Of a stretch of 64,000 bases of DNA, positions 858 to 61,068 are shown piece by piece; within the stretch, counting starts at the first letter, position 1; the number at the start of each line of letters is the position of its first letter. The translations under genes and the position numbers were made by a program. This stretch comes from Nonlabens dokdonensis DSW-6. GTDB taxonomy: Bacteria; Bacteroidota; Bacteroidia; Flavobacteriales; Flavobacteriaceae. The notes beneath the pieces are model-generated. The model was not told the DNA's origin. It did no database searches and worked only from the letters and a program-made list of their open reading frames with translations. The DNA is taken from assembly GCF_000332115.1 (NCBI RefSeq), contig NC_020156.1, positions 3,101,501 through 3,165,500 on the forward strand, written 5' to 3'.

Positions 858-2090
858 TTAAGCTTCAACGGCTTCTTCTTTCCATTGAAGTTCCACCTGA
901 CGTTGTCCTTTTAAAATATCCTCCATTGTTTCTCGCTCTCTTATTAGGTGAGCAGCGCTATCGTACCACAACACTTCTGCAGGTCGATAACGAGAATTGT
1001 AATTGCTTGCCATAGAAAAACAATAAGCTCCAGCATTAGAGAAAGAGAGAATATCACCTTCTGTTATTTCAGAAATTTGACGATTGTTTGCAAACGTATC
1101 CGTCTCACAAATATATCCTACCACGCTGTAAAATCTGTTTTTACCTTCTGGGTTTGAAATGTTTTTTATTCCATGATAAGAACCATAAAGCATCGGTCGT
1201 ATCAAGTGATTGAAACCAGAATCAATACCTGCAAAAACAGTAGAGGTAGTCTGTTTCACCACGTTTACTTGAGCAAGAAAATGACCAGCTTCACTCACCA
1301 GAAATTTACCAGGTTCAAACGCCATGGTGATATCACGACCGTAGTTTTTACAAAATGCGTTAAAACGCTCACTAAGTTGCTCGCCAAGATCTTCAATATC
1401 GGTAGAAACATCACCTTCCTTATATGGTACTTTGAAACCACTTCCAAAATCTATAAATTCCAGATCTTTAAATTTTGCAGCCGTTTCAAAAAGGATTTCT
1501 GTAGCATAAAGAAAAACACCTATGTCTAGAATATCGCTTCCCGTATGCATGTGCACACCATTAACGGTCATTCCTGTATTTTCTACAATTCTTAATATAT
1601 GAGGTATTTGATGTATAGAAATACCAAATTTACTATCGATGTGTCCTACAGAAATATTAGCATTTCCACCAGCCATCACATGAGGATTAATCCTTATACA
1701 AACTGGTGTTTTAGGATGTTTAGAGCCAAATTGCTCTAAAATAGAAAGGTTATCAATGTTGATTTGAACGCCTTTTTCGGCTACTTTTTCAATTTCCTCC
1801 AGTGAAACACCATTAGGTGTAAATATTATTTTTTCAGGAGCAACGCCAGCAGCGAGTCCTAATTCAACTTCTTGTAGACTAACGGTATCGAGTCCAGCGC
1901 CTAGCTGTTTAAAAAGTTTCAAGATAGAGATGTTAGACAGTGCTTTTACTGCGTAGTGAATTCTTAGGTTTTTCGCTTTCGCGAAAGCGGAAACTAAACG
2001 TTCATACTGCGCTACAATGACATTTGCATCATAGACATAGACCGGACTACCGTGTTCTCGAGCTATGTTTAATAAATCTTGATTATTCAT
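858..2090 (-). CDS. lysA: Diaminopimelate decarboxylase
   Basis: This cytosolic PLP enzyme converts meso-diaminopimelate to L-lysine, the last step of lysine synthesis. At 410 aa the length is normal for bacterial LysA. The PLP lysine is K49 in YAVKA. The phosphate-binding GSGF, EPGKFLV and the substrate-binding CETDTFA motif are present in the expected order, as is the C-terminal GAYCFSMASNYN stretch. It is a fold-type III decarboxylase; ornithine/arginine decarboxylase is less likely given CETDTFA. The gene is alone on the minus strand, divergent from sucC. A perfect copy of the 16-bp palindrome CGCTTTCGCGAAAGCG lies inside the gene (1974-1989) and encodes AFAKA at residues 35-39, just before the PLP-lysine strand, so the copy is tolerated in a folded enzyme. 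Confidence 0.95.
   Translation of the reverse strand: MNNQDLLNIAREHGSPVYVYDANVIVAQYERLVSAFAKAKNLRIHYAVKALSNISILKLFKQLGAGLDTVSLQEVELGLAAGVAPEKIIFTPNGVSLEEIEKVAEKGVQINIDNLSILEQFGSKHPKTPVCIRINPHVMAGGNANISVGHIDSKFGISIHQIPHILRIVENTGMTVNGVHMHTGSDILDIGVFLYATEILFETAAKFKDLEFIDFGSGFKVPYKEGDVSTDIEDLGEQLSERFNAFCKNYGRDITMAFEPGKFLVSEAGHFLAQVNVVKQTTSTVFAGIDSGFNHLIRPMLYGSYHGIKNISNPEGKNRFYSVVGYICETDTFANNRQISEITEGDILSFSNAGAYCFSMASNYNSRYRPAEVLWYDSAAHLIRERETMEDILKGQRQVELQWKEEAVEA
1974..1989. repeat. 16-bp palindromic repeat, copy 1 (genic, lysA)
   Basis: Perfect CGCTTTCGCGAAAGCG. It is read as AFAKA within lysA. Confidence 0.9.
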
Positions 2091-2252
2091 GTAATAAACT
2101 TAAGCCTACAAAAGTACTAGAGTGAGAAAAATAAAAGTGAATTATATCTTAAATTTTTAAGTATTGTGTAGATATGGAAACTAGAATAATTGTATAACCG
2201 AATTTATGTATTCTTTTAGAAAGATTTCTTTTTCTTTAATGGCTCACTTGCT

Positions 2253-2260
2253 TATTTTTG
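2253..2260 (+). promoter_or_regulatory. Possible -7 box for sucC
   Basis: TATTTTTG matches the Bacteroidetes TAnnTTTG -7 consensus, 31 bp before the sucC ATG. No clear -33 TTG partner was found. Confidence 0.4.
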
Positions 2261-2291
2261 CTAATACTTAATTGAACTTTAAAGAACATTT

Positions 2292-3488
2292 ATGAATCTT
2301 CACGAATATCAAGGTAAAGAAATACTCGCTAGCTATGGGGTGACCATACAAAGAGGTAAAGTTGCAACCACATCAGACGAGGCAGTAGCAGCGGCAAAAG
2401 CACTAACTGAAGAAACCGGAACAGGATGGCATGTAATTAAAGCCCAAGTTCATGCTGGTGGACGTGGTAAAGGTGGTGGAGTAAAACTAGCTAAAAACCT
2501 TGATCAAGTAAAAGAAATTTCTGGAGAGATCATAGGAATGGATCTTGTAACGCCACAAACTACCGCCGAAGGTAAACGAGTACATCAAGTTCTTGTTGCT
2601 GAGGATGTTTACGAGCCAGGAGAAGCTGAAATAGAAGAATTTTATATGTCTGTTCTTCTTGACCGTGCTCAAGGAAAGAACATGATTATGTATTCTACTG
2701 AAGGTGGAATGGATATAGAAACTGTAGCAGAAGAAACGCCACATTTAATATTTACTGAAACTATCGATCCAGCTCATGGATTACAAGGTTTTCAAGCGAG
2801 ACGTATTGCTTTTAACTTAGGTTTGAGTGGTAAAGCCTTTAAAGAGATGACCAAATTTGTGAACTCTTTATACAATGCTTATTTAGGATCTGATAGTGCT
2901 TTATTTGAAATCAATCCAGTATTGAAAGCATCAAATAACACGATTATCGCCGTAGACTGTAAAATCACTTTAGACGAGAATGCATTATTTCGTCATAAAG
3001 ATCTTGCTGAATTAAGAGATACAAGAGAAGAGAATGCTACTGAAGTAGAAGCAAAGGCCGTAGGATTGAATTATGTTGACCTAGATGGTAACGTAGGTTG
3101 TATGGTAAATGGTGCTGGACTTGCAATGGCAACGATGGATCTAATCAAACAAGCTGGAGGATCTCCGGCAAACTTCCTAGACGTAGGTGGAACGGCAGAT
3201 GCTAAAAGAGTAGAGGAAGCTTTTAAAATTATCTTGAAAGATAAAGGTGTGAAAGCTATTCTGGTAAACATTTTTGGTGGTATTGTACGCTGTGATCGTG
3301 TAGCGCAAGGAATTATTGATGCTAAGAAAAGTATGGGTGATGCTATGAATGTTCCATTGATTGTAAGATTACAAGGAACAAACGCAGAGATCGCAAAAGA
3401 ACTTATTGACAACAGCGGAATGGACGTACAAAGTGCGGTAGAATTTCAAGAAGCTGCAGATAAAGTACAGGCGGTAATAGCAAAGTAA
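2292..3488 (+). CDS. sucC: Succinyl-CoA synthetase (ADP-forming), beta subunit
   Basis: This is the beta subunit of the TCA-cycle enzyme that makes ATP from succinyl-CoA. The protein begins MNLHEYQGKEIL, the usual SucC start. The ATP-grasp region has KAQVHAGGRGKGGG and EINPVL. The C-terminal CoA-ligase domain has NGAGLAMATMD, GGTADA and NIFGGIVRCD. At 398 aa it is full length. Its partner sucD is not adjacent as in proteobacterial sucCD but lies 14.3 kb downstream at 17832. The gene stands alone between the divergent lysA and a hairpin terminator. The start is well fixed by the conserved N-terminus. Confidence 0.96.
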   Translation: MNLHEYQGKEILASYGVTIQRGKVATTSDEAVAAAKALTEETGTGWHVIKAQVHAGGRGKGGGVKLAKNLDQVKEISGEIIGMDLVTPQTTAEGKRVHQVLVAEDVYEPGEAEIEEFYMSVLLDRAQGKNMIMYSTEGGMDIETVAEETPHLIFTETIDPAHGLQGFQARRIAFNLGLSGKAFKEMTKFVNSLYNAYLGSDSALFEINPVLKASNNTIIAVDCKITLDENALFRHKDLAELRDTREENATEVEAKAVGLNYVDLDGNVGCMVNGAGLAMATMDLIKQAGGSPANFLDVGGTADAKRVEEAFKIILKDKGVKAILVNIFGGIVRCDRVAQGIIDAKKSMGDAMNVPLIVRLQGTNAEIAKELIDNSGMDVQSAVEFQEAADKVQAVIAK

Positions 3489-3527
3489 AAAACTACAGCC
3501 ATTGAGTTGGCAAATTAATTATTATAT

Positions 3528-3557
3528 AAAAACCACGCAATTTGCGTGGTTTTTTTG
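3528..3557 (+). terminator. Rho-independent terminator after sucC
   Basis: AACCACGC (3531-3538) and GCGTGGTT (3544-3551) form an 8-bp stem with loop AATTT, flanked by A-run and T-run. It may work in both directions. Confidence 0.85.
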
Positions 3558-3678
3558 TTTGAGTGATTATTGTTTAATATGACGTAATATATCTAGTCAA
3601 ATAATGATGATATAATTGACTGCTTAAAGGAGTCAACTTTATTTCGAATCGATGAAGAGTAATTCACCGAAGAGGTGT

Positions 3679-3987: not shown

Positions 3988-4065
3988 TGTAAAATCAATT
4001 TAATAATATCGAAAGTATAAGTTTTTTTAGAATATACAAACAAATAAAAAGGCTTATTTAATTAA

Positions 4066-5130: not shown

Positions 5131-5161
5131 TGAACAGTAACTGTGATGATTATATAAGTTC

Positions 5162-5177
5162 CGCTTTCGCGAAAGCG
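5162..5177. repeat. 16-bp palindromic repeat, copy 2 (intergenic)
   Basis: Perfect CGCTTTCGCGAAAGCG between the divergent aroB and proline dehydrogenase genes. Confidence 0.9.
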
Positions 5178-5250
5178 AGACCTAAAATAGGTTCTTGTTA
5201 TTATTCTCCAAAAGTAGCGTCTATATGATTAATTTAATCTTTTATGCAAT

Positions 5251-5258: not shown

Positions 5259-5262
5259 TTAC

Positions 5263-7256: not shown

Positions 7257-7263
7257 ATTCTTT

Positions 7264-9371: not shown

Positions 9372-9791
9372 TTATTGGGTATTTTGTAAAGGCTTTAAGC
9401 TTAATTTTCTTGTGTTTGAATCAATTATTTCTATTGATACTTCCTGATATTCAGATAGAAACGGTTTTGAAAACTCTGGCCACTCAATTAGCTGAAATGC
9501 ATTTTTTATCAGATAATCTTCAAAACCAATGTCATATAACTGCTCAGAATGTTCAATTCTGTACAAATCAAAGTGCATCACGTCTGTTTGAACTCCTTTA
9601 TACTCGTTGACTAAACTAAAAGTAGGAGAGGTGATCGCATCTATTACTCCTAATTGTTTACAGAGTGCTTTTATGAGGGTAGTTTTTCCTGCTCCCATTG
9701 GAGCATCAAACAATATTACCTTTGACTGCGCATGATTTAGAAGCTGCTCAGCAACAGCATCGATTTCAGATAAATTATAAGTAATTTCCAT
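9372..9791 (-). CDS. tsaE: tRNA threonylcarbamoyladenosine biosynthesis ATPase
   Basis: TsaE is the ATPase that drives the TsaB-TsaD complex in making t6A at position 37 of ANN-decoding tRNAs. The 139-aa length is normal. The P-loop APMGAGKTTLIKAL (about residues 30-43) is intact, followed by the conserved SPTFSLVNEY and the HFDLYRIE motif, then a W-P-E Walker-B-like motif (IEWPEF). Its ATG shares one base with the stop of porX (TAATG), so the two genes are translationally coupled. TsaC, from the same pathway, is encoded at 44054. Confidence 0.94.
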   Translation of the reverse strand: MEITYNLSEIDAVAEQLLNHAQSKVILFDAPMGAGKTTLIKALCKQLGVIDAITSPTFSLVNEYKGVQTDVMHFDLYRIEHSEQLYDIGFEDYLIKNAFQLIEWPEFSKPFLSEYQEVSIEIIDSNTRKLSLKPLQNTQ

Positions 9792-11341
9792 TATCTAGGT
9801 TCAAATATGACAAATGGTATCAACATCTCTTCTAAAGAAACACCTCCATGCTGATACGTATTTCTATAATAACTTACATAGTGATTGTAGTTATTAGGAT
9901 ATGCAAAGAACAAATCTCCTTTTGCAAAAATGAAACTACTACTCATATTAATCTTGGGTAATTTGATGCTACTAGGGTCTTTAGCTGCAAGAACATCTTT
10001 ATCTTCATAAGATAAACTTCTACCAGTTTTATATCTTAAGTTCAAGCTTGTATTTTTATCTCCGATTACTTTGCTAGGTGAAGTAACATTAATAGTTCCA
10101 TGATCAGTCGTCAGAATTAACTTAAAGCCTAACTCTTGACCTTTTTGTATAATATCAAACAACGGAGAGTTTTTAAACCAGCTTAAAGTTAGTGATCTAT
10201 AACTTTTATCTGTACTTGCAAGTTCTTTAATCACTTCCATTTCTGTTTTAGAATGAGAAAGCATGTCTACAAAATTGTAAACTACAACTGTAAGATCATT
10301 GTCTTTTTGACTTTTAAAGTTATCGGCAAGTTTACGCCCTTTATTCTCATTAGTAATTTTATGGTACTGATGTGTGATGTTTAAGTTTAGTCGTTTTAAC
10401 TGCGCTGTGAGAAAGGCGTTTTCATGCATGTTTTTCCCACCTTCATCAGTATCATCCAGCCATAAATCTGGATGCCTTTTCTTCATATCTTCTGGCATCA
10501 GGCCAGAAAACAACGCATTTCTTGCATATTGAGTAGCTGTAGGTAATATGGAACAGTAGGTTTCTTCCTCCACTTTCTTATAGTAATTGTTGATCAAGTT
10601 TTCAAACACTCGGTATTGATCTAATCTAAGATTATCAACTACAACAAGTAATACAGGATCTTCTTTTTTAAGATGTGGAGCTATTCTCTCTTTAAATAAA
10701 TTGTGACTTAAAATAGGATTGTCCTCGTCACCGTCAAACCAATCTGGATAGTTTCTATCAATAAATTTACAGAACTGTTGATTTGCTTCGTTCTTCTGAG
10801 CTTGTAAAATTTCAAACATACCAGAGTCGTCAACATCCTCTAATTCAATTTCCCAATAAACTAATTTCTGATAGAGTTGCACCCATTCTTCATAACTATT
10901 GATCATAGACATGTCCATAGCTATTTTTCTAAACTCACGCTGATAATCACTTATTGTTTTATCATTGATAAGCCTAGAATGATCGAGATTCTTTTTTACC
11001 GCAAGTAGTATTTGATTGGGATTAACTGGTTTGATAAGGTAATCGGCTATTTTAGAACCGATAGCTTCCTCCATAATATATTCCTCTTCACTTTTTGTGA
11101 TCATTATCACAGGTAATTGAGCTTGTTTTTCTTTGATTTCGTGCAAGGTTTCCAGTCCCGTTAAACCTGGCATGTTTTCGTCTAAAAAGATCAAGTCATA
11201 ATTGGTCTCTTCAATTGCTTCCAGCGCCTCAGAACCACTTATTCTTGTGTCAATCGTATATCCCTTTTTCTCCAAGAAAATGATGTGAGGTTTTAATAAA
11301 TCCACTTCATCGTCTACCCATAGTATTTTGATCTCTGCCAT
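9791..11341 (-). CDS. porX: PorX-type response regulator with PglZ phosphatase-like domain
   Basis: PorX is the response regulator that controls type IX secretion in Bacteroidetes. The 516-aa protein has an N-terminal receiver domain (about 1-120): acidic pocket D10/D11, phospho-acceptor D54 in FLDENMPGLTG, and the ITK switch region. A helical linker follows, then a PglZ/alkaline-phosphatase-fold domain (about 200-516) with VVVDNLRLDQYR, the nucleophile region LPTATQYARNALFSGLMP and LTTDHGT. There is no DNA-binding domain, as expected. Known PorX proteins act with the PorY kinase and hydrolyse cyclic or linear oligonucleotides; that is family knowledge. The two T9SS-tagged proteins in this window (22496, 28178) would be clients of the system it controls. 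Confidence 0.92.
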   Translation of the reverse strand: MAEIKILWVDDEVDLLKPHIIFLEKKGYTIDTRISGSEALEAIEETNYDLIFLDENMPGLTGLETLHEIKEKQAQLPVIMITKSEEEYIMEEAIGSKIADYLIKPVNPNQILLAVKKNLDHSRLINDKTISDYQREFRKIAMDMSMINSYEEWVQLYQKLVYWEIELEDVDDSGMFEILQAQKNEANQQFCKFIDRNYPDWFDGDEDNPILSHNLFKERIAPHLKKEDPVLLVVVDNLRLDQYRVFENLINNYYKKVEEETYCSILPTATQYARNALFSGLMPEDMKKRHPDLWLDDTDEGGKNMHENAFLTAQLKRLNLNITHQYHKITNENKGRKLADNFKSQKDNDLTVVVYNFVDMLSHSKTEMEVIKELASTDKSYRSLTLSWFKNSPLFDIIQKGQELGFKLILTTDHGTINVTSPSKVIGDKNTSLNLRYKTGRSLSYEDKDVLAAKDPSSIKLPKINMSSSFIFAKGDLFFAYPNNYNHYVSYYRNTYQHGGVSLEEMLIPFVIFEPR

Positions 11342-11372: not shown

Positions 11373-12599
11373 TTGAAACAACAGAACAAACTTAAAATAT
11401 TAAACGATCCTATCTACGGTTTTATTTCGATTCCTTCAGAAGAGATTTTTAGAATAGTAGAACATCCATATTTTCAACGTCTACGTCGTATTACTCAAAT
11501 GGGCTTGAGCTACCTGGTTTATCCTGGAGCACACCATACTAGATTTCATCATGCATTAGGTTGTTTGCACCTCATGCAAAAAGCAGTACAAGTACTTAGA
11601 TCTAAGTCAGTTGAAATATCAGTAGAGGAAGAAGATGCGCTCTACAAAGCCATCTTGTTACACGATATAGGACATGGACCGTTTTCTCATGCCTTAGAAT
11701 ATCAAATTATAAATAAGGTCACTCACGAGCAACTTTCTTATCATTTTATGAATGATTTGAATCGCGAGTTTAACTGTAGTTTAACGCTTGCCATCCAAAT
11801 ATTTAAAGGAGAATACCACCGTCCGTTTATGTTAGAATTGATTTCCAGTCAGCTAGACATGGATCGATTAGATTATCTTAAAAGAGATAGTTTTTATACC
11901 GGCGTTGCAGAAGGTAACATCAACAGCCAGCGACTCATTACAATGCTTAATGTAGTGAATGATAAACTCGTAGTTGAGGAAAAAGGACTTTACAGCGTGG
12001 AAAACTTCCTATCTGGTCGAAGGTTGATGTATTGGCAAGTTTATTTACACAAAACAGGAATAGGCGCTGAGCATTTACTGCAATCTGTTATTAAGCGTGT
12101 TAAGGAACTTCTTGAAAAAGGAGTTAAGGTAGACTTACCAGATAATCTCAGATATTTCTTTATTAATGATCATCCTGATTTTGAAACAAATTCTTTGGAT
12201 CTCGAACGATTTGCTGCTTTAGATGACTCTGATATAATTTTTACGCTCAAACTAAGCATGAATCATCAAGATTTTGTTTTGAGCGAACTTTGTAAAATGA
12301 TCCTGAATCGACAGCTGCTCAAAATAAAATTTTCAAGTAAACCTATTCCACAAAGTAAAGTTCAAAAGCATTTACAAAAACTTCAGAAATCTTATCAACT
12401 AAGTGAGCACGAAGCATCTTACTTTGTGTTTTCTGGTGATGTTGTTAATCTCGCTTACGCGAAAGCGAAACCTATTCAAATAGTAAATAAAAAAGGTAAA
12501 TTAATAGAACTTATAAAAGCAGGTAAGGAAGATAGCTTTAAAGCTTTGCTCAAAGAAGTGAAGAAATATTACTGTTGTTATCCAAAGCTGCAAGATTGA
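11373..12599 (+). CDS. HD-domain phosphohydrolase
   Basis: A 408-aa member of the HD phosphohydrolase family related to YwfO/SAMHD1-like enzymes, which hydrolyse (deoxy)nucleotides; substrate here is unknown. Metal ligands are visible as H in TRFHHALG (about residue 57), HD in ILLHDIGHGPFSH and the late D in SSQLDMDRLDYLKRDS. The start is a TTG (11373): the ATG at 11362 is followed at once by a stop, and the frame from the TTG gives the family N-terminus with NDPIYGFI. A TATATTTG box sits upstream. A one-mismatch copy of the 16-bp palindrome (12452) encodes AYAKA. The gene precedes lpxD by 23 bp but lpxD has its own box. Confidence 0.85.
   Translation: MKQQNKLKILNDPIYGFISIPSEEIFRIVEHPYFQRLRRITQMGLSYLVYPGAHHTRFHHALGCLHLMQKAVQVLRSKSVEISVEEEDALYKAILLHDIGHGPFSHALEYQIINKVTHEQLSYHFMNDLNREFNCSLTLAIQIFKGEYHRPFMLELISSQLDMDRLDYLKRDSFYTGVAEGNINSQRLITMLNVVNDKLVVEEKGLYSVENFLSGRRLMYWQVYLHKTGIGAEHLLQSVIKRVKELLEKGVKVDLPDNLRYFFINDHPDFETNSLDLERFAALDDSDIIFTLKLSMNHQDFVLSELCKMILNRQLLKIKFSSKPIPQSKVQKHLQKLQKSYQLSEHEASYFVFSGDVVNLAYAKAKPIQIVNKKGKLIELIKAGKEDSFKALLKEVKKYYCCYPKLQD
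12452..12467. repeat. 16-bp palindromic repeat, copy 3 (genic, one mismatch)
   Basis: CGCTTACGCGAAAGCG. One base differs from the consensus; the HD gene reads it as AYAKA. Confidence 0.8.
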
Positions 12600-15831: not shown

Positions 15832-16398
15832 ATGGCAAGTACAAGCGACATTAGAAAAGGATTATGCATCCGTTACAATCATGATATCTATAAAATCATT
15901 GAATTTTTACATGTAAAACCTGGAAAGGGACCTGCATTTGTAAGAACAAAGTTAAAATCGGTAACCTCTGGAAAAGTTATTGATAATACGTTTTCTGCAG
16001 GGCATAAAATTGAAGATATCAGAGTAGAAACTCAAGCTTTTCAATTTTTATATCAAGATCCAGAAGGATATCACTTTATGAATACTGAAACTTATGAGCA
16101 AATACGTTTACAAGAATCTGTTCTTGATGCACCTGGATTGCTTAAAGAAGGTGAGATTGTAAAAATTCAAATTAATACAGAAGATGATTCGCCATTATCT
16201 GTAGACATGCCTCAATATGTAGTTCTTGAAGTAACAGCTACCGAACCAGGAGTTAAAGGTAATACGGCAACTAATGCTACTAAACCTGCAACCGTTGAAA
16301 CTGGTGCTGAGGTAATGGTACCACTTTTCATTAATGAAGGTGACGTTATCCGTATCGATACTGAAAAAGGAAACTATCACGAGAGAATGAAGCAATAG
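15832..16398 (+). CDS. efp: Elongation factor P
   Basis: EF-P relieves ribosome stalling at polyproline stretches. The 188-aa protein has the three expected beta domains: KOW-like (1-65), central OB (66-127) and C-terminal OB (130-188, ending in DTEKGNYHERMKQ). The tip loop reads PGKGPAF with K32 at the site normally modified. No epmA/epmB lies nearby. Bacteroidetes EF-P often keeps Lys at this position, but the modification state cannot be told. It is embedded in the lipid A block, with 3 bp to lpxA and a one-base overlap with the next gene. Confidence 0.96.
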   Translation: MASTSDIRKGLCIRYNHDIYKIIEFLHVKPGKGPAFVRTKLKSVTSGKVIDNTFSAGHKIEDIRVETQAFQFLYQDPEGYHFMNTETYEQIRLQESVLDAPGLLKEGEIVKIQINTEDDSPLSVDMPQYVVLEVTATEPGVKGNTATNATKPATVETGAEVMVPLFINEGDVIRIDTEKGNYHERMKQ

Positions 16399-17342
16399 TG
16401 AAGTTCCCTAAAGCATATACACTTTCTGAAATAGCTGCTATCATTGATTGTGGTTACAAAGGTGACGCAGCATTTCCAGTTTTGGGAATGAATGAAATTC
16501 ATGTGGTAACGCCTGGTGACATTGTATTTGTAGATCATCCTAAATATTATGATAAAGCATTGGAGAGCGCCGCTACTATCGTTTTGATTAATAAAGAGGT
16601 GGAATGTCCTGAAGGTAAAGCTTTACTCATTTCAGACGATCCTTTTAGGGATTTCAATAAACTAACAAATTATTTTCTTCCTTTTTCCGCTTTCGCGAAA
16701 GCGCAACTTCCCAAAAGCATAGGAAAAAATTCTCATATTCATCATACGGCCAGTGTAGGTAAAGATGTTGTCATAGGAAGTAACACGATCATTCATGCAA
16801 ATGTTAATATAGGGGATCGTACCATAATCGGTGATGATGTAACCATTCATGCTGGGGTAGTCTTAGGCGGCGATGCATTCTATTACAAAAGAAGGCCAGA
16901 AGGTTATGATAAATTACTGAGTAATGGTAGAGTGGTGATTCATGATCGAGTTGAGATAGGTGCAAATAGCACAATAGATCGAGGTGTTACAGGAGACACA
17001 ACTATAGGCTATGGAACTAAGTTAGATAATCAGGTACAAATAGGACACGATACTGTATTAGGTAATCATGTTCTCATTGCAAGCCAGACTGGAATTGCTG
17101 GTTGTGTAGTTGTAGAAGATGAGGTTACCATATGGGGCCAAGTAGGGATAACTAGTGGCATAACTATAGGTAAAAAAGCTGTGATATCTGCAAAGTCTGG
17201 TGTTAGTAAAACTCTTGAAGGAAACAAACATTACTTCGGCATTCCAGCAGATGATTTTAGAAGTAAATACAAAGAAATTGCTGCGATAAAGCAAATTCCT
17301 GAAATGATGCAATTGGTCAAAGAATTAGATAAAAACCGTTAA
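16398..17342 (+). CDS. LpxD-like acyltransferase paralogue
   Basis: A 314-aa second LpxD-family protein. It keeps the N-terminal uridine-binding-like domain (about 1-100, GDIVFVDHPKYYDKAL) and the hexapeptide beta-helix (110-290). The catalytic His equivalent is kept (H217 in VQIGHDTVLG) but the second active-site His is lost: lpxD GIAGHI reads GITSGI here (about 250-255). It may therefore use another acyl donor or sugar nucleotide, or be regulatory. The start is GTG, overlapping the efp stop by one base (TAGTG). A perfect 16-bp palindrome encodes AFAKA at residues 98-102, exactly at the linker between the two domains, where an insertion would be least harmful. Confidence 0.85.
   Translation: MKFPKAYTLSEIAAIIDCGYKGDAAFPVLGMNEIHVVTPGDIVFVDHPKYYDKALESAATIVLINKEVECPEGKALLISDDPFRDFNKLTNYFLPFSAFAKAQLPKSIGKNSHIHHTASVGKDVVIGSNTIIHANVNIGDRTIIGDDVTIHAGVVLGGDAFYYKRRPEGYDKLLSNGRVVIHDRVEIGANSTIDRGVTGDTTIGYGTKLDNQVQIGHDTVLGNHVLIASQTGIAGCVVVEDEVTIWGQVGITSGITIGKKAVISAKSGVSKTLEGNKHYFGIPADDFRSKYKEIAAIKQIPEMMQLVKELDKNR
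16688..16703. repeat. 16-bp palindromic repeat, copy 4 (genic, LpxD-like)
   Basis: Perfect CGCTTTCGCGAAAGCG, read as AFAKA at the interdomain linker of the LpxD paralogue. Confidence 0.9.
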
Positions 17343-19537: not shown

Positions 19538-21556
19538 ATGACCGTAGTTTTGATGATTGTAGCTGCAGGTATTGCTGCCTTAATAGCTCTTTTTCAGTAC
19601 GGTTATATAGGTACATCAAAAAATACTAGAAAAAAACCGTGGTTTGCGTTATTGCGCTTTCTCACGGTTTTTTCTATTTTATTACTTTTTATAGCTCCTA
19701 GATTTGACTCTAAAACCTATGAATCCTTGCTACCTCAATTAGTTATTGTAGTAGACGATTCTAAGTCTATTGATTACCTCGATTCTGGTGACGCTGTGAA
19801 AAAGGATTTGGAATCGATTTTAAATAATCAAGAGCTAAATTCAAATTTTGAGATTCAGACCTATAAGTTTTCTGAAACTATACAGCCACTCGATTCTTTA
19901 GGTTTTCTTGCGACAGAGACTGACTTAAGTGTTGCCATAACGCAACCTCAAGAGTTATTTAAGAACAGAAACAAAGCGGTAGTTGTTCTCACTGATGGCA
20001 ATCAAACCACTGGAAATAGTTATTCTTACTCACAAATAGATGAGAAAACAAGCTTATATCCGGTGATCTACGGTGATACTACGCAGTATGCAGATCTACA
20101 AATTACAAACATAAACGTGAATAGGTATTCCTACCTTAATAATGAGTTTCCTGTAGAAGTGTTTGTTTCCTATCAAGGTCAGGAAAAAGAGTCGCGTTTA
20201 TTTAAAATTACCCAAGGAAATAGCACCTTGTATTCTGAAACACTTTCTTTTGATTCTAAGAATAGGTCGGCAATTGTGAGCTTTAACCTTACCAGTAAAG
20301 CAGTAGGAACTCAATCTATGGTGGCGACTATAGAGGCGCTTCCTAATGAAAAGAACACTCAAAACAATTACCGAAGCTTTGCGGTTGAGGTGATCGATCA
20401 ACAGACTAATGTTTTGATTCTAAGCGACCAGTTGCATCCAGATATCGGCGCTTTGAAAAAGGCAATAGAGTCTAACCAGCAGCGTAAAGTCACGATTAAA
20501 AATACCAGTGAAGATTATGATCTCAATGAGTATAATCTAGTGGTAATGTATGGTGTGAGTTCCGCTTTCGAGAAAGCGTACACACAAATAGATCAATTTA
20601 ATAAAAATACATGGGTGATTACAGGTAGCCAGCCCGACATTGATTACCTGAATAGTAAATACCAAAGTTTTGAGTTAGAAAACAGTTTTGACTTTGATGA
20701 GGCACAGCCTATTCTCAATACATCTTACTCTACATTTAATCTAGATCAATTGAGTTTTGATGATTATCCTCCAGCTCAAGTGCCTTTTGGAGAATTGATT
20801 TTTAATACAAATGTTGACGTACTTTTTTATAAGAAAATAGGCGCAATTGCGACTACACAACCTATATGGTTTAATTATGAAGATGGTGATTCTAAACGTG
20901 CGGTGACACTAGCAAGCGGTTTATGGAGATGGAGAGCTCAAAGTTATTTAGACGAGCAAGATTTTAAGAATTTTGATGATTTAGTGAGCAGTCAGGTGCA
21001 ATACTTAGCCAGCAATAAAAAGCGCAATAGGCTAGAGGTAACTTACGAGCCATTCTACTATCAAAATAAAAGTATTTTAATAAATGCTCAATATCTGGAT
21101 AAAAATTATGAATTTGAAGACAATGGTATATTAAACTTAAATATAACTAATACTGAAAATAAGGAATTGATCACCAGACCTTTTGTACTAAGTGGTAATT
21201 CTTACGTAGTTGATTTAAGTGGTCTTGAAGCAGGTGATTATAGATTCACAGTTAAAGTAGAAAATGACCAGTTATCGCGCAGCGGTTCTTTCAGTATTTT
21301 AGAATATGATATTGAAAAGCAACAAGTAAATGCGAGTGATGCTGGAATGAAAAAATTAGTAGGTAATGAAAGGGTTTATTATCAAGGACAAACAGCTCAG
21401 TTGATAGAAAACTTGAACACAGACCCATTATTACAAACAGTAGAAAGAGCAAGTGTTAAACAAACCAGTCTAATAGACTGGAAGTACCTTTTAGGCCTTA
21501 TCTTGCTATTATTAGGACTAGAATGGTTTTTAAGAAAATATAACGGATTAGTTTAA
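19538..21556 (+). CDS. Large membrane protein with VWA-like domain
   Basis: A 672-aa inner-membrane protein. Two helices lie at the N-terminus (about 2-23 and 35-54) and one at the C-terminus (about 649-665, YLLGLILLLLGLEWFL). Between them lies a large exposed part. It begins with a von Willebrand A-like domain: VVDDSKS (about 71-77) fits the metal-site DxSxS pattern and VVLTDGNQTTGN follows, although the second Thr/Asp sites are not clear. Beta-rich domains then fill residues 190-620. Such architecture matches Bacteroidetes BatA/glutamine-amidotransferase-like membrane proteins. A one-mismatch palindrome at 20563 encodes AFEKA. It is coupled to fabG (15 bp) and the SPFH gene (11 bp). Confidence 0.75.
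   Translation: MTVVLMIVAAGIAALIALFQYGYIGTSKNTRKKPWFALLRFLTVFSILLLFIAPRFDSKTYESLLPQLVIVVDDSKSIDYLDSGDAVKKDLESILNNQELNSNFEIQTYKFSETIQPLDSLGFLATETDLSVAITQPQELFKNRNKAVVVLTDGNQTTGNSYSYSQIDEKTSLYPVIYGDTTQYADLQITNINVNRYSYLNNEFPVEVFVSYQGQEKESRLFKITQGNSTLYSETLSFDSKNRSAIVSFNLTSKAVGTQSMVATIEALPNEKNTQNNYRSFAVEVIDQQTNVLILSDQLHPDIGALKKAIESNQQRKVTIKNTSEDYDLNEYNLVVMYGVSSAFEKAYTQIDQFNKNTWVITGSQPDIDYLNSKYQSFELENSFDFDEAQPILNTSYSTFNLDQLSFDDYPPAQVPFGELIFNTNVDVLFYKKIGAIATTQPIWFNYEDGDSKRAVTLASGLWRWRAQSYLDEQDFKNFDDLVSSQVQYLASNKKRNRLEVTYEPFYYQNKSILINAQYLDKNYEFEDNGILNLNITNTENKELITRPFVLSGNSYVVDLSGLEAGDYRFTVKVENDQLSRSGSFSILEYDIEKQQVNASDAGMKKLVGNERVYYQGQTAQLIENLNTDPLLQTVERASVKQTSLIDWKYLLGLILLLLGLEWFLRKYNGLV
20563..20578. 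repeat. 16-bp palindromic repeat, copy 5 (genic, one mismatch)
   Basis: CGCTTTCGAGAAAGCG. The VWA-like gene reads it as AFEKA. Confidence 0.8.
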
Positions 21557-22436: not shown

Positions 22437-22495
22437 TTTATAACAGTTTGACCTTTAAATGTTTTCTTATCTTTAAGAACATTTAAACGATGGTT

Positions 22496-24181
22496 ATGTC
22501 TAGATTTTTACTTTTAATTTTTCTTACTTTTAGTGTTCAGTTTGCGCAGTCGCAGTGTCTACCAGTAACACAGTTTGATTATTCCAATTATACAGGAACA
22601 AGTGCAGAAATAAATTGGACGCCTGCAGGAACAGAAACTGCCTGGGTAATTGAATACGGTGTGCATCCCTATAACCCAGCAACTAATTCTGGGGTGATAA
22701 TATTTTCTACTGGTTCTCCTATTTTAGTAGTTACTGGATTGACACCTAATGTAGCGTATGATTTCTTTATTTCAGCAGATTGTCAAAATTTAGGAACTAG
22801 TGGTCAGACAGGACCGGTTATAGTTCCTTCTAATTCAATTAACGGTAGAATTATTTATGATTCAGATTCTAATGGTTGCAGTACCACTGATCCCATGGTG
22901 AGTGGAATGCGTATAAACGCCCAAGCTACTTCAGTTTCGTCTTTGTTCTCTGCCATTACAGATTCAAATGGAAATTATGAAATTTTAGTTCCTAGTGGAA
23001 ACTTCACTTTAGATATGGATTTCAATAACTCGATAGTTAGCGTAAATCCTCAAAGTACAAATATTTCTTTTCCGAATAGTAGCAATAATTTTACACAAGA
23101 CTTCTGCATTGTTCCAATAACATTACAACAAGATATAGTCGTCAGGATAATACCTATTAACCAAGCTAGGCCAGGTTTTAACGTGATGTACGATGTAATA
23201 GTCAGTAATCAAGGTACTTTACCAGTTAGTGATGTATTGAAATTCTCTTACAACAATACACTAATGACTTTTTTGTCAGCATTACCTACACAGGATAGTA
23301 CAACTGCAAATAGTATTTTCTGGAACTACACTTTAAATCCATTTGAAAGCAATACCTATAGAGTTACAATTAATTTAAATGCACCAACACATCCTACTAA
23401 TCCATTAAATGGTGGAGATATTATCTTACCAAATGCTAGTAGTTATCTTAATAGTGCTGATGTTGATCTTTCTAACAACTTCTATGTATTAGATCAAACT
23501 GTAGTAAACAGTTACGATCCTAATGACAAAACTTGTCTACAAGGCAATACTATTGAGCCAGATATGATAGGTGAATACTTGGAGTATCTGATACGTTTTG
23601 AAAACACAGGAACGGCAAGCGCCATTAACGTAAGAGTTAAAGATGTCATCGATACCTCTAAATTTGATATAGACAGTTTTGCGCCGTTAAACTCTAGTCA
23701 TGAGTATTATGCCAGCATCACAAATGGTAACGAAATTGAATTTTACTTTGACGACATCAATTTAGATTTTAACGATGCGACAAATGATGGTTATGTTCTA
23801 TTCAAAATCAAAACATTGAATTCATTAGCACTAGGCGATAGCTTTGATAATACTGCCGAAATCTATTTTGACTTCAACTTTCCGATTATTACCAATACCG
23901 AGACTGTTACTATTTTAAACACGACAAGTGTTGCAGATCCTACTGAAAATAGCATCTTGCTATCTCCTAATCCATCACAAGACTTTATAAGCCTTGATGC
24001 TGCCTTCACGATTGAATCGCTTTTGATATACGATATTCAAGGAAGAATGCAGTCGCAATATGATGAGTCGACAACGGATTTTGAAGCACCTATTTCTATT
24101 GCAAAGTTGAGTCAAGGCGTTTATTTTCTTGTTGTAAATAGCGATCAAGGTCAGGAAACGTTGAAGTTTATTAAGAAATAA
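22496..24181 (+). CDS. T9SS-secreted multidomain protein
   Basis: A protein of about 561 aa, exported by Sec and then T9SS. The start could be the ATG at 22490 or 22496; I prefer the second (MSRFLLLIFL). A signal peptide covers about 1-20. A fibronectin type III-like domain follows (about 21-105, PVTQFDYSNYTGTSAEINW). A carboxypeptidase-regulatory/SdrD-like segment comes next (about 115-180). A DUF11-like beta region leads into a DUF7619-type repeat (about 330-470) with SYDPNDKTC and FENTGTASA. The last 75 residues form a type A T9SS sorting domain (LLSPNPSQDFISL ... LSQGVYFLVV ... KFIKK). Such proteins are surface adhesins or are released. It is alone between the SPFH terminator and a repeat-rich gap. 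Confidence 0.85.
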   Translation: MSRFLLLIFLTFSVQFAQSQCLPVTQFDYSNYTGTSAEINWTPAGTETAWVIEYGVHPYNPATNSGVIIFSTGSPILVVTGLTPNVAYDFFISADCQNLGTSGQTGPVIVPSNSINGRIIYDSDSNGCSTTDPMVSGMRINAQATSVSSLFSAITDSNGNYEILVPSGNFTLDMDFNNSIVSVNPQSTNISFPNSSNNFTQDFCIVPITLQQDIVVRIIPINQARPGFNVMYDVIVSNQGTLPVSDVLKFSYNNTLMTFLSALPTQDSTTANSIFWNYTLNPFESNTYRVTINLNAPTHPTNPLNGGDIILPNASSYLNSADVDLSNNFYVLDQTVVNSYDPNDKTCLQGNTIEPDMIGEYLEYLIRFENTGTASAINVRVKDVIDTSKFDIDSFAPLNSSHEYYASITNGNEIEFYFDDINLDFNDATNDGYVLFKIKTLNSLALGDSFDNTAEIYFDFNFPIITNTETVTILNTTSVADPTENSILLSPNPSQDFISLDAAFTIESLLIYDIQGRMQSQYDESTTDFEAPISIAKLSQGVYFLVVNSDQGQETLKFIKK

Positions 24182-24792: not shown

Positions 24793-25269
24793 TTACGATC
24801 CATAAATACGCGTGTCTGCAATACCTACGATGACCCATTTGTCGTCTATAAAAAAGAGTGTGAACTTATTAGTTCCTATATGCGATAACAAATTATTGAA
24901 ATAGAATTCATAAGTGGTAGAAACAGTTGCGACCTGAGTATCGTTGCTGTAACTGATCTCAATAAGGCGTTCTTCAAAGGGAATACTATCTGGTATACTC
25001 GCAATTCCTTTTAAGAATCCGTCTATTTTTGTTTTGTTGATCATGCGTTGTTCACCTTTGATAGACATTGAGGTAAGCATGATTTCTGGTAGGATCATTT
25101 CTTTTAATGCCACCGTATCTTGCGCGTGAAAATTTTTAAAAAAGGTCTTCACAGCATCCACAGGATTAGGTTTTTCAATAGTCACCACGGTAGAATCTTG
25201 TGATATAGGTTGTTGTGAGTAAGCTTTCGCGAAAGCGAGAACACAAATAGCAGTAAATAGAAGTCTCAT
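24793..25269 (-). CDS. Exported NTF2-like (DUF4440-type) protein
   Basis: A 158-aa protein with a signal peptide whose end is coded by a copy of the 16-bp palindrome: MRLLFTAICVLAFAKAYSQQ, with AFAKA ending at residue 16 and probable cleavage after the A-K-A (AXA) site or a little later. The mature part has the NTF2-like pattern VDAVKTFFKNFHAQDTVALKEMI..., a helical start followed by strands (QVATVSTTYEFYFNN, HIGTNKFTLFFIDDKWVIVGIADTR). That layout fits calcium/calmodulin-associated or DUF4440-type domains without clear catalytic residues. It is divergent to panB, with the start codons 60 bp apart. Confidence 0.75.
   Translation of the reverse strand: MRLLFTAICVLAFAKAYSQQPISQDSTVVTIEKPNPVDAVKTFFKNFHAQDTVALKEMILPEIMLTSMSIKGEQRMINKTKIDGFLKGIASIPDSIPFEERLIEISYSNDTQVATVSTTYEFYFNNLLSHIGTNKFTLFFIDDKWVIVGIADTRIYGS
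25222..25237. repeat. 16-bp palindromic repeat, copy 6 (genic, one mismatch)
   Basis: AGCTTTCGCGAAAGCG. It is read as AFAKA and supplies the signal-peptidase region of the exported NTF2-like protein. Confidence 0.85.
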
Positions 25270-27665: not shown

Positions 27666-27681
27666 CGCTTTCGCGAAAGCG
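27666..27681. repeat. 16-bp palindromic repeat, copy 7 (intergenic)
   Basis: Perfect CGCTTTCGCGAAAGCG, preceded by TTTTTATGGGTGGTAGTTT; nearly the same lead-in occurs before copy 8. Confidence 0.9.
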
Positions 27682-29743: not shown

Positions 29744-29759
29744 CGCTTTCGCGAAAGCG
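29744..29759. repeat. 16-bp palindromic repeat, copy 8 (intergenic)
   Basis: Perfect CGCTTTCGCGAAAGCG, 14 bp after terminator copy B. Confidence 0.9.
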
Positions 29760-38551: not shown

Positions 38552-38567
38552 CGCTTTCGCGAAAGCG
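38552..38567. repeat. 16-bp palindromic repeat, copy 9 (intergenic)
   Basis: Perfect core within a longer 22-bp palindrome TTCCGC...GCGGAA (38549-38570), followed by TTATTTT, so it may act as the murA terminator. Confidence 0.9.
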
Positions 38568-42501: not shown

Positions 42502-42517
42502 CGCTTTCGCGAAAGCG
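42502..42517. repeat. 16-bp palindromic repeat, copy 10 (intergenic)
   Basis: Perfect CGCTTTCGCGAAAGCG between the phosphatidyltransferase start and the terminator of the hydrolase gene. Confidence 0.9.
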
Positions 42518-45267: not shown

Positions 45268-45283
45268 CGCTTTCGCGAAAGCG
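45268..45283. repeat. 16-bp palindromic repeat, copy 11 (intergenic)
   Basis: Perfect CGCTTTCGCGAAAGCG, 30 bp upstream of the DUF2945 start codon. Confidence 0.9.
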
Positions 45284-51975: not shown

Positions 51976-52075
51976 GTTATAATATTTAGTTTGTGAAGAT
52001 AATAATATGCTTTTAAAAACGCTTGTATTGTTAGTGGTTTCTTATTTTTGGAACACTTTTGGCACTATAACTTTT

Positions 52076-52873
52076 ATGATCAAAAATGTATGCTTTTTAT
52101 TAGGTGTTTTTTGTGTTCTCGCTTTCGCGAAAGCGCAACAAAATCCTACATCACAACCTATAAAAAACGACTCTGTAAAAAAGGATACCACCGAGTATTT
52201 CTACATTGACGGTGACTCAGTAAGTTCTATAGAACTGGATAAGGTAATGCTATTACAGGACTTAAACTTTGACAGCAGGTACGAGCGCATCAGGTATTTA
52301 TTATTAAAACGTAAAGTGCTTAAAGTATGGCCGTATGCAAAAATGGCAGCAGAACGACTAACGGTACTCGATCAAAGACTAGCTTCTTTAGAAACTAAAA
52401 ATCAAAGAAAGAAATATTCTAAAATGGTGGAAGATTACATCGAAGATGAATTTAAAGCCGAATTGAAAAAACTGACCAAAACAGAAGGTCAAATTTTAAT
52501 CAAGCTCATACACAGACAAACAGGTGATACGGCTTATGCCTTATTAAAACGCTTGAGAAGCGGCTGGAGTGCGTTTTGGTTTGATAAAACCGCCAGTCTA
52601 TTTGACATGTCATTAAAAGAAGAATACTTACCAGAAACGGTTGTAGATGATTTTTATGTAGAAGATATCTTGCTCAATCATATAATTGATGAGAAACTTG
52701 AGGAACAAGAACCAGCCATAGAATTTGATTACTTTAAAGCACGCAGTAACTGGAAAGACTACGAGCGTAATTTACCTCCTACGTATGATAGCATTCAGCT
52801 AGCGGCTCGCGCACAGCGTATTAAAGAATACAAAGAGAAGAAAGCGAGAAAAGAACGACGTAAAAGAAAATAG
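52076..52873 (+). CDS. DUF4294 family exported protein
   Basis: A 265-aa protein, conserved in Flavobacteria, of unknown function. I start at the ATG at 52076 and not the in-frame ATG at 52007, because MIKNVCFLLGVFCVLAFAKA is a complete signal peptide. The last residues AFAKA come from a perfect 16-bp palindrome (52120), so the palindrome codes the signal-peptidase site. The mature part has YFYIDGDSVSSIELDKVMLL, then a helical middle (RKVLKVWPYAKMAAERLTVLD) with GWSAFWFDKTASLFDMSLKEEYLP, and a very basic tail (EYKEKKARKERRKRK). It is probably envelope-bound. Nothing else is known to me. Confidence 0.85.
   Translation: MIKNVCFLLGVFCVLAFAKAQQNPTSQPIKNDSVKKDTTEYFYIDGDSVSSIELDKVMLLQDLNFDSRYERIRYLLLKRKVLKVWPYAKMAAERLTVLDQRLASLETKNQRKKYSKMVEDYIEDEFKAELKKLTKTEGQILIKLIHRQTGDTAYALLKRLRSGWSAFWFDKTASLFDMSLKEEYLPETVVDDFYVEDILLNHIIDEKLEEQEPAIEFDYFKARSNWKDYERNLPPTYDSIQLAARAQRIKEYKEKKARKERRKRK
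52120..52135. repeat. 16-bp palindromic repeat, copy 12 (genic, signal peptide)
   Basis: Perfect CGCTTTCGCGAAAGCG, read as AFAKA at the end of the DUF4294 signal peptide. Confidence 0.9.
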
Positions 52874-55057: not shown

Positions 55058-55073
55058 CGCTTTCGCGAAAGCG
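55058..55073. repeat. 16-bp palindromic repeat, copy 13 (intergenic)
   Basis: Perfect CGCTTTCGCGAAAGCG, 40 bp before the pirin start, between divergent genes. Confidence 0.9.
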
Positions 55074-57789: not shown

Positions 57790-57806
57790 TTACTTTGCTC
57801 AAGGAT

Positions 57807-58340
57807 TTAAAATAAACGTTGCTGGCCGTTATGAAGATCGATACCTTCTAACTCCAGCAACTTTTTCTTTGCAGGAAGTCCGCCAGCATAGCCAGTTAAA
57901 GAACCATCAGCTCCTATAACTCTATGACAGGGAACAATAATAGAAATCGCATTAGCACCATTTGCGCTCGCAACCGCTCTTATGGCTTTTTCATTTTTTA
58001 GCTTTCGCGAAAGCGAGATATAACTACAAGTCGCTCCATAAGGAATGCTTTGTAACTCGTTCCAGACGCTTTTTTGAAAATCGGTTCCTGATAGTAATAA
58101 GGGTAGATCAAAATTTCTCAGGTCACCTTTGAAGTACGCATCTAATTGCTGACTGGTTTGATCCAGTAACTCGTGATTTCCTGATTTAAAATTAGCATCT
58201 AAATGTTTGATGATTCTAGCATCGATGGCATCTCGCATTTTGCGGTATTTCCAGTCGGCTAGGCATAGTTTATTTTCATAAACGCCTAAAATCAATTCTC
58301 CTACGGGACTTTTATAACTAGAAGTTATGATGTTACTCAT
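57807..58340 (-). CDS. ogt: Methylated-DNA-protein cysteine methyltransferase
   Basis: A 177-aa suicide repair protein that takes alkyl groups from O6-alkylguanine. The active-site PCHRV holds C138, and the N-terminal KSPVGELILGV, IPYGATCSY and AIRAVASANGAN (helix-turn-helix with the Arg finger) are typical. A one-mismatch palindrome at 58000 encodes SLSRKL, just before the DNA-binding helix; this is a different reading frame of the palindrome from most other genic copies. The start overlaps the end of the ABC permease gene by 8 bp. Confidence 0.93.
   Translation of the reverse strand: MSNIITSSYKSPVGELILGVYENKLCLADWKYRKMRDAIDARIIKHLDANFKSGNHELLDQTSQQLDAYFKGDLRNFDLPLLLSGTDFQKSVWNELQSIPYGATCSYISLSRKLKNEKAIRAVASANGANAISIIVPCHRVIGADGSLTGYAGGLPAKKKLLELEGIDLHNGQQRLF
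58000..58015. repeat. 16-bp palindromic repeat, copy 14 (genic, one mismatch)
   Basis: AGCTTTCGCGAAAGCG within ogt, read on the minus strand as LSRKL. Confidence 0.85.
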
Positions 58341-59574: not shown

Positions 59575-59672
59575 GAAAAGTAAGACTTGAAAAAAGAGAT
59601 AAAGTTACAAGTTATAGCGGTAAATTTTCCTTTTATTAAAATTTCATTAGGAAGAGACGTCCTTGAACTGTT

Positions 59673-59680
59673 TATATTTG
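59673..59680 (+). promoter_or_regulatory. -7 box of hisS
   Basis: TATATTTG (TAnnTTTG) 17 nt before the ATG at 59698. It supports that start over the ATG at 59587, which would place the box inside the gene. Confidence 0.5.
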
Positions 59681-59697
59681 CAAGCTCAATACAAATT

Positions 59698-61068
59698 ATG
59701 GCACAGAAACCGTCTATTCCTAAAGGTACAAGAGATTTTAGCCCGCTAGAAGTACAGCGCAGGCAATACATCATGAACATTATCAAGCGTCATTTTGAAC
59801 TGTATGGATTCATGCCTATTGAAACGCCTAGTTTTGAGAACTCTGATACCTTGATGGGAAAGTATGGTGAAGAAGGCGACCGATTGATTTTTAAGATTCT
59901 TAATAGTGGAGAATACCTTAAAAAAGCAGATGCTAATTTGTTAGAAACAGGAAAAGAAAATCAGCTTACTTCTCAAATTTCAGAAAAGGCATTGCGCTAC
60001 GATCTTACCGTTCCTTTTGCGAGATACGTAGTCCAAAACCAAAACGATATTACCTTTCCGTTCAAGCGTTTTCAAATGCAAAACGTATGGCGAGCAGATC
60101 GCCCGCAGAAAGGTCGTTTCAGAGAATTTACACAATGCGATGCCGATGTGGTAGGAAGCGATTCCCTACTTCAAGAAGTAGAATTGATCCAATTATACGA
60201 CGCTGTTTTTACTGATTTAAAACTTACTGGTTGCACGATTAAAATCAACAACCGTAAGGTACTTGCTGGTATTGCTGAGGTTATGGACGCCGAAGATAAA
60301 TTGATCGACTTTACCGTAGCTCTGGATAAACTCGATAAAATAGGAAAAGATAAAGTACAGGAAGAAATGCGTTCTAAAGGCATTGATCAAGAAGCAATAG
60401 ACGTACTCGATCCTGTTTTTAGCCTTTCTGGTTCTTATGCAGATAAGATCGCTAGTATGAAAGACCTGCTTAAGGAGTCGCAAATAGGGCTTCAAGGAAT
60501 TGAGGAGTTAGAATTTATCAATTCCTTTATAGATGACACTGCATTAAAAAGTGCGGTTCTTGACCTAGATATTACGCTGGCTCGCGGTTTAAACTATTAT
60601 ACCGGTTGTATTTTTGAGGTTGCTGCTCCAGATGGAGTAGAAATGGGAAGCATAGGCGGCGGCGGCCGTTATGATGATTTGACCGGTATTTTTGGGCTGA
60701 AGAATGTGAGCGGTGTAGGAATCAGTTTTGGACTGGACCGTATTTATTTAGTGATCGAACAGTTGGGTCTATTTCCAGATTCCGTTAGAGCAGGAGTAGA
60801 GGTGTTGTTCATCAATTTCGGTGTGACAGAAGCGCGTTATTGTGCTGGATTGTTGTCTCGCTTTCGCGAAAGCGGAATCAAAACAGAGCTCTATCCCGAT
60901 AGCGCAAAGATGAAAAAACAAATGTCTTATGCAGACCGTAATGAGATTCCTTATGTAATTCTTGCTGGTGAAGATGAGATTGCGAGCGGTAAACTCAACC
61001 TTAAGAATATGCGCACGGGCGAGCAATCGCTGTTAACCGTGCAAGAGGTGATCGAGCGATTGAGATAA
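59698..61068 (+). CDS. hisS: Histidyl-tRNA synthetase
   Basis: A class II aminoacyl-tRNA synthetase of 456 aa. I start at [14 protein letters not shown] (59698): an in-frame ATG at 59587 adds 37 residues that do not fit the family and overlap a promoter-like box. Motif 1 region [14 protein letters not shown], motif 2 [23 protein letters not shown], the His-binding RGLNYYTG and GGGGRYDDL, and motif 3 [11 protein letters not shown] are all present. The anticodon-binding domain (about 365-456) begins at the palindrome copy at 60859, which encodes SRFRES (residues ~388-393) in a loop of that domain. No partner gene is coupled. Confidence 0.95.
60859..60874. repeat. 16-bp palindromic repeat, copy 15 (genic, hisS)
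   Basis: Perfect CGCTTTCGCGAAAGCG, read as RFRES in the anticodon-binding domain of HisS. Confidence 0.9.

Follow-up and report, generated by a model that had tools for sequence, protein, structure and literature searches.

A regularly spaced 16-bp palindrome in the chromosomes of Nonlabens and its relatives as the core of a longer symmetric site for a putative DNA-binding protein

The stretch of DNA described here, hereafter the window, comprises 64,000 nucleotides (positions 3,101,501 to 3,165,500) of the genome of Nonlabens dokdonensis DSW-6, which is a single contig of 3,914,632 bp (G000). Scattered among and within its genes, which include lpxD-like, EPSP synthase and histidyl-tRNA synthetase open reading frames (ORFs), are 15 copies of the 16-bp palindrome CGCTTTCGCGAAAGCG, 11 perfect and four with one mismatch (Table 1), each exactly where the initial annotation of the window, made from the sequence alone, had placed it. 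No further match within 3 mismatches is present. The window has a GC content of 35.2%, and CGCTTTCGCGAAAGCG is the only 16-bp palindrome occurring there more than once; dinucleotide shuffles of the window (n = 100) contained on average 0.13 copies and at most one, which bears out the annotation's view that a chance origin is improbable. The 10-bp core, TTTCGCGAAA, occurs 13 times and is extended to 14 bp in every case. Set against the ORF list, seven copies are intergenic and eight lie within ORFs, as had been proposed.

Table 1. Copies of the palindrome in the window
Copy	Position	Strand	Setting	Neighbouring or enclosing ORF
Perfect	1974..1989	none	within ORF	858-2090(-), PLP-dependent Orn/DAP/Arg decarboxylase family
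Perfect	5162..5177	none	intergenic, divergent gap	upstream of 3-dehydroquinate synthase ORF
One mismatch (CGCTTA, left arm)	12452..12467	none	within ORF	11373-12599, HD-associated region match
Perfect	16688..16703	none	within ORF	16398-17342, LpxD-like
One mismatch	20563..20578	none	within ORF	19538-21556
One mismatch (outermost base)	25222..25237	none	within ORF	24793-25269(-)
Perfect	27666..27681	none	intergenic	
Perfect	29744..29759	none	intergenic	
Perfect	38552..38567	none	intergenic	directly past EPSP synthase ORF
Perfect	42502..42517	none	intergenic	
Perfect	45268..45283	none	intergenic	
Perfect	52120..52135	none	within ORF	52007-52873, DUF4294
Perfect	55058..55073	none	intergenic	upstream of pirin ORF
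One mismatch (outermost base)	58000..58015	none	within ORF	57807-58340(-)
Perfect	60859..60874	none	within ORF	59587-61068, histidyl-tRNA synthetase

The palindrome is abundant throughout the chromosome and restricted to a small clade. In the source genome the perfect word occurs 737 times and its reversed form never, which is far from chance; per Mb this amounts to 188 perfect copies, with 228 for the core (893 in all). All 22 other Nonlabens-group genomes carry between 180 and 680 copies; one of 36 genomes of other genera in the same scan has any (G033, four copies). Across the family, 48 of 397 genomes have at least one match to the 16-mer, and counts above 13 are found only in four Nonlabens genomes (448–737), a Dokdonia genome (G250, 630) and G234 (153). 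Core counts are 893, 595 and 700 for three Nonlabens genomes, 1107 for G250, 559 for G234 and no more than 34 elsewhere among 259 family genomes, such that three genera only stand above the rest. In a further scan of 296 genomes none besides the source exceeded 29 copies. Among the matches listed in a separate multi-genome scan (80 of 111 stretches), Nonlabens and Dokdonia dominate, with isolated hits in unrelated bacteria. One close relative, G188, has 34 core copies where the reversed control gives 21, which is close to background. When six lpx-region proteins were placed in a tree, with G145 and G122 as the only other outgroups, G188 grouped with G234 (support 67) and G250 joined both (support 100); the motif has likely been lost secondarily in G188. 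The limits of the clade and the near-background count in G188 provide a comparative handle that could help to find a cognate gene. A literature search, with subscription papers and preprints outside its scope, returned no match to the 12-, 14- or 16-mer and no report of the motif; its matches were to the 10-mer core only and seem unrelated.

Copies are spaced much more evenly than random placement would produce. Across the first 645 kb of the source genome (the first 100 perfect sites), 98 of 99 gaps, a single gap of 94 kb being excluded, have a mean of 5.55 kb and a coefficient of variation (CV) of 0.56, against 0.99 for random positions; none of 20,000 simulations gave a CV as low, and 1% of gaps are shorter than 1.5 kb where 24% are expected. 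In 84 contiguous kb, sites with at most one mismatch define 19 gaps with a mean of 4.19 kb, a minimum of 2.08 kb and a CV of 0.43 against 0.95 at random (P = 0.0001), and perfect sites alone define 14 gaps with a CV of 0.53 (P = 0.007); 'about evenly spread', in the words of the initial annotation, is an understatement. Among 39 Nonlabens stretches of 20 kb (17 from the source genome), 6 of 127 gaps fall below 1.5 kb, against 27% expected. An exception is a pair of perfect copies 273 bp apart (L155:8596 and 8869), both within one histidine-kinase gene (PF06580). When 20-kb samples were taken round the source chromosome, 18 of 20 held between 1 and 5 perfect copies (in one sample near 2.0 Mb, L161, 7,488 of 20,000 bases are N); the sample with a single copy straddles an edge of the 94-kb gap and both copy-free samples lie inside it. 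Since copies cannot otherwise sense distant neighbours, this regularity implies selection or drive acting at the kilobase scale. Local bias of mutation or repair is therefore insufficient to explain it, whereas selection or drive with diminishing returns suffices.

Placement with respect to genes was assessed using 252 perfect sites, of which 99 come from the source genome and 153 from loci of the multi-genome scan, a few unrelated chance hits included. These comprise 147 genic and 105 intergenic sites and, with coding DNA at approximately 88–89% by a crude ORF call, copies are about six times denser between genes than within them. Genes hold 0.147 core copies per kb, and the corresponding figures for tandem, convergent and divergent gaps are 0.84, 0.93 and 1.28. 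There is no strong preference for convergent or divergent gaps, and the motif is therefore not chiefly a terminator or operator; sites are located where they are tolerated, without particular ties to promoters or terminators. Within genes, 98 of the 147 sites are read in the frame encoding Ala-Phe-Ala-Lys-Ala, and the other two frames account for 27 and 22.

The symmetry of the site extends well beyond the palindrome. Adenine occupies dyad offsets 11, 14, 17 and 20 in 60.8% of intergenic half-sites, compared with 38.6 and 37.7% in the other phases (P = 6e-27), and in 57.3% of genic half-sites, compared with 36.5 and 34.2% (P = 2e-35), half-sites being treated as independent for both P values. 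Guanine is depleted over offsets 11–26, from 15.1 to 5.8% in intergenic and from 18.8 to 8.6% in genic sites. Because the 3-bp period is also present between genes, it is not an artefact of codons. The extended arms TTCCGC/GCGGAA described initially are real, but they are merely part of this longer flank. Flanks in Dokdonia (37 sites) have A at 10, 14, 17 and 20 and little G to about offset 26, with a different preference at offsets 9–11; in G234 (28 sites) the outer arms are looser and the flank signal is faint. Covariation between the two flanks is confined to +1 and +3 of intergenic sites (z of 4.7 and 4.2), and its lack beyond +3 rules out a long hairpin.

Imperfect copies and half-sites indicate how much of the palindrome is needed. 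Among 70 imperfect Nonlabens sites, 48 of 79 mismatches affect the outermost base, 25 affect half-site position 6 and only 3 the central CGCG; those at position 6 are taken to be largely one conserved lpx site counted across many species. Outside core sites, 416.5 kb contain 10 copies of the half-site CGAAAGCG where 5.3 are expected; five of the ten lie within imperfect full sites and five stand alone. For GCGAAAGCG and CGCGAAAGC the counts outside core sites are 6 and 7 against 1.3 expected each, an excess that counts against an argument from half-sites, and 2 and 3 remain when imperfect full sites are set aside; all these expectations are rough, deriving from an order-2 model that includes the motif itself. 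With imperfect full sites discounted, the number of lone half-sites thus matches expectation. The inner word TTCGCGAA is not seen outside the 10-bp core in 416.5 kb. Symmetric flanks without enrichment of half-sites argue that an intact duplex is recognised by a putative symmetric protein, with a footprint of perhaps 40–52 bp.

The sites that were followed individually are conserved in position. We compared the lpxD-lpxA-efp region of the source and 20 further Nonlabens genomes, and the site at 12452 is found at the same alignment position in all 21, within 2 mismatches and most often as the same single-mismatch variant, by which a conserved Tyr codon seems to be preserved. The site at 16688 occupies the same position in 19 of 21, and a two-mismatch copy in G234 aligns with it. 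At third codon positions the two sites reach mean identities of 0.934 and 0.965, where flanking codons give 0.581 and 0.482 and lpxA overall 0.533; these figures cover only species in which a motif of at most 3 mismatches lies close to where it was expected (20 and 19 of 21). Caution is required, as some 6-codon window of lpxA without the motif also reaches a third-position identity of 1.0. The lpx region of Dokdonia (G250) has five sites, all at other positions, and those of G188, G145 and G122 have no site within 2 mismatches. Beyond this region, only 5 of 242 sites in other loci fall on sampled DNA of the source genome; four of these match a copy there, three perfect and one with a single mismatch (L088 and L102, both Nonlabens, L125 and L138), and the fifth, from a Dokdonia locus, has no counterpart. 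Exact 16-bp sites that number in the hundreds, that keep their positions where followed and that are tolerated despite amino-acid changes imply strong selection on the scale of a few kilobases.

The motif also travels on transferred DNA. In other genera the motif forms small clusters in which spacings of 933 and 2446 bp recur; these belong to a single family of transferred islands (L169-L173, L175-L180, L187 and L188), which is distributed across many Flavobacteriaceae genera at approximately 65–99% DNA identity and carries the motif at matching positions. Its representative, L169, is of the metal-resistance type, with Fur-family, P-type ATPase, RND efflux, outer-membrane efflux and multicopper oxidase genes. 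An island homologue without the site, the one examined in detail, differs by substitutions and not by an insertion (LRLNENG versus LRFRESG), so the site is accompanied by a change of protein; at a second island site, one homologue has an insertion. A mobile repeat family was rejected as the source of the copies, since the sequences flanking them are unrelated and the island homologue differs by substitutions; although islands and phage contigs carry some copies, the motif is not confined to one mobile element family.

Scanning viral contigs for the exact motif returned 41 stretches on 30 contigs. One phage contig of 37.4 kb has 6 copies together with terminase, portal, head-protease and tail-sheath genes, and its terminase is 54.5% identical to that of Winogradskyella phage Peternella_1, the record of which carries DDE transposase, transposase B and Mu-like annotations; the motif was not found in Peternella_1. 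Another contig, of 23.9 kb, has 4 copies and a tyrosine integrase, and both motif-rich contigs show signs of temperate life. No copy is present in the Nonlabens phages P12024S (all 35.7 kb) and P12024L (30 of 35.65 kb), and no integrase is annotated in the parts seen. Phage homologues retain the motif at 64–68% DNA identity, a biased observation in that both members of each pair were found by the exact-motif search. Presence on temperate-like contigs and absence from two isolated phages fit a link with chromosome residence, and suggest that the site is kept on DNA resident in a carrier chromosome, although three phage records are few.

Taken with the even spacing, which leaves chromosome organisation or maintenance, DNA exchange and recombination control as the choices, these observations lead us to consider CGCTTTCGCGAAAGCG the core of a symmetric site of approximately 40–52 bp for a putative clade-specific, dimeric or higher-order protein that binds double-stranded DNA and organises or maintains the chromosome, a reading to which we assign a probability of about one half. 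That the full palindrome is needed speaks against a single-strand signal such as Chi, and the absence of the pilus ATPase against classical uptake. The initial annotation had proposed a genome-wide, orientation-free binding site, and that part of its proposal is supported by the counts, spacing, positional conservation, symmetric flanks and unenriched lone half-sites. The reader, its dimeric nature and its role in organisation or maintenance are inferred from sequence. Such a protein would be confined to Nonlabens, Dokdonia and a neighbouring genus, and would most likely occupy the chromosome about every 4–5 kb, where it might, for instance, anchor the nucleoid at regular intervals or mark domain boundaries; selection whose returns diminish, since a single site every few kilobases is enough, would hold sites both in place and apart. 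It is at this scale that the organisation of bacterial chromosomes, the control of recombination and the exchange of DNA are poorly understood. A more specific version, which we think doubtful, would have the protein nucleate on the palindrome every 4–5 kb and spread outwards on both sides over about four base triplets, as a filament or repeat protein reading one A per 3 bp. If true, this would represent a new chromosome-wide periodic architecture in bacteria, a scaffold adopted also by chromosome-resident phages and islands.

Several observations weigh against an organising protein. Four Pfam families were tried, none of which distinguishes carriers from non-carriers, and no binding protein was found. 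The motif is spread over the whole chromosome, unlike the regionally confined organiser sites matS and those of Noc and SlmA, and a transfer-driven or Chi-like explanation predicts largely the same spacing and conservation. In the main coding frame (98 sites) the 3-bp period is clear, but the 27 and 22 sites of the other two frames show it weakly. The viral contigs were found through the motif itself, most have one or two listed copies, and several, being of high GC, are probably chance hits. Finally, a 94-kb stretch (G000:C1:131692-225871, L150-L152) is without a perfect copy, so the site is dispensable locally in places. In the 60 kb sampled around this gap, the parts inside it contain very large ORFs, and the one that was tested, over 4,723 residues, encodes a nonribosomal peptide synthetase in which condensation and AMP-binding domains were identified; one imperfect copy lies close to the end of the gap. 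We infer that this stretch was recently acquired.

Sites of the parS, matS, Noc and SlmA kinds are palindromes of approximately 12–16 bp for dimeric DNA-binding proteins, and the motif shares this form while differing in its hundreds of copies over the entire chromosome. Sites for matS, Noc and SlmA are restricted to, or excluded from, chromosome regions such as the terminus; the motif shows no such restriction, with perfect copies in 18 of 20 sampled stretches and the two without them lying in the 94-kb gap. The parS consensus is TGTTTCACGTGAAACA, present in few copies. Identity with parS was rejected, the motif being a different word, and canonical parS occurs separately in the source genome at 1,525,832 and, with 1 mismatch, at 1,527,725. 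This parS-like pair (G000:C1:1525832-1527740, about 1.9 kb apart) has a similar counterpart in 17 of 20 genomes searched and lies far from the parAB genes (3.09 Mb); it suggests the position of the origin region, to judge from parS alone. Each of 20 genomes encodes one ParB of chromosomal type. Additional, larger ParB relatives of 616 residues occur in some carriers and some non-carriers, on which ground an extra ParB/Noc paralogue was rejected as the reader.

Other explanations account for part of the evidence. Chi is read on one strand and occurs about once per 4–5 kb, and a bidirectional Chi-like site that controls end-processing and loads RecA would match in density, the motif occurring roughly once per 4.4 kb, much like Chi in E. 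coli, as well as in even spacing. The inbound strands are G/T-rich and 3-bp periodic on both sides, and, as the RecA filament reads DNA in triplets, a G/T-rich strand entering the palindrome would suit it. A signal read on one strand should work as a half-site, however, and lone CGAAAGCG numbers 5 in 416.5 kb against 5.3 expected; the motif is also palindromic and its core much longer than known Chi. The two isolated Nonlabens phages lack it as well, an argument weakened by the ERF and YqaJ-like proteins that they themselves encode. RecBCD was rejected as the reader (AddAB was not searched), because the RecC family is absent from 22 of 22 genomes and, among 14 control genomes, matches only E. 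coli. We consider a Chi-like role improbable. More weight, within what is still an unlikely explanation, attaches to a DNA-exchange signal, namely the uptake sequence of a competence system other than the type IV pilus, kept by molecular drive through preferential uptake or recombination. Even spacing, tolerated frames, intergenic placement, genus 'dialects' and carriage on metal-resistance islands all resemble uptake sequences, and the lack of copies in the two isolated phages is in keeping with DNA that fails to recombine with the chromosome. The uptake signal sequences (USS) of Pasteurellaceae and DNA uptake sequences (DUS) of Neisseriaceae share with the motif genome-wide spacing, a core with flanks, dialects and tolerated frames (in part from PMC1939737), and USS are significantly evenly spaced according to Karlin et al., as cited in PMC1939737. 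The motif departs from them in being palindromic, in its occurrence on temperate-like phage contigs and in its hosts: the T2SSE/type IV pilus ATPase (PF00437) scores above cut-off in none of 20 genomes, all 20 giving weak sub-threshold matches only, against 13 of 14 control genomes. A type IV pilus uptake signal was accordingly rejected as far as the ATPase, the one pilus gene searched, can tell.

The nearest known kind of element is the highly iterated palindrome (HIP), represented by HIP1 and its alternates in cyanobacteria. According to PMC4390886, HIPs are words of 5–8 bp, sometimes with extensions of a few bases, at approximately 1000–2000 per Mb; like the motif they are palindromic, hugely over-represented (here 737 against 0) and variable between lineages, and their imperfect copies differ mostly at the ends. 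The motif differs in its 16-bp length with symmetric 3-bp-periodic flanks, its 188–228 copies per Mb, its regular spacing and its Bacteroidota host. The comparison with HIP1 or a methyltransferase site made in the initial annotation is therefore only partly apt. Production by a methyltransferase together with mismatch repair, the model set out in PMC4390886, would suit a GC-rich palindromic core within AT-rich DNA, and the clustering of mismatches at the outermost base (48 of 79) recalls the first- and last-nucleotide bias reported there for HIP1. Against this, local mutation-repair bias cannot set kilobase-scale spacing, and TTCGCGAA is not iterated alone. C5 methyltransferases (PF00145), the one class searched, are scattered, occurring in 12 of 20 genomes and missing from 3 of 10 carriers (G009, G022 and G234), which led us to reject them as a necessary partner; a HIP made by a methyltransferase is unlikely, and we rate it slightly below a Chi-like site. 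A family of transcription terminators or RNA hairpins is the least credible explanation, and very improbable. The word can form a 6-bp stem, with extra pairing at +1 and +3 of intergenic copies, yet 147 of 252 sites are genic, densities in the three gap types are alike, the outer flanks lack covariation, and the would-be loop CGCG is nearly invariant (fixed by definition in core sites, 3 of 79 mismatches in imperfect ones).

In 20–60 kb samples of G188, G035, G122, G145 and G120, too small to exclude them, no other iterated palindromes were seen. A possible sister motif, TTTCNGAAA, is approximately five to nine times over-represented in samples of G122, G145 and G120, representing three other genera; it is mostly in one reading frame (Ser-Glu codons) and far rarer per kb in the source genome, and we provisionally regard its enrichment as a codon-context effect. 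Elsewhere in the window, positions 9791-11341 encode a response regulator fused to a PglZ domain, which we take to be a PorX-like arrangement, and the ORFs at 22490-24181 and 28178-29674 carry Por secretion tails.

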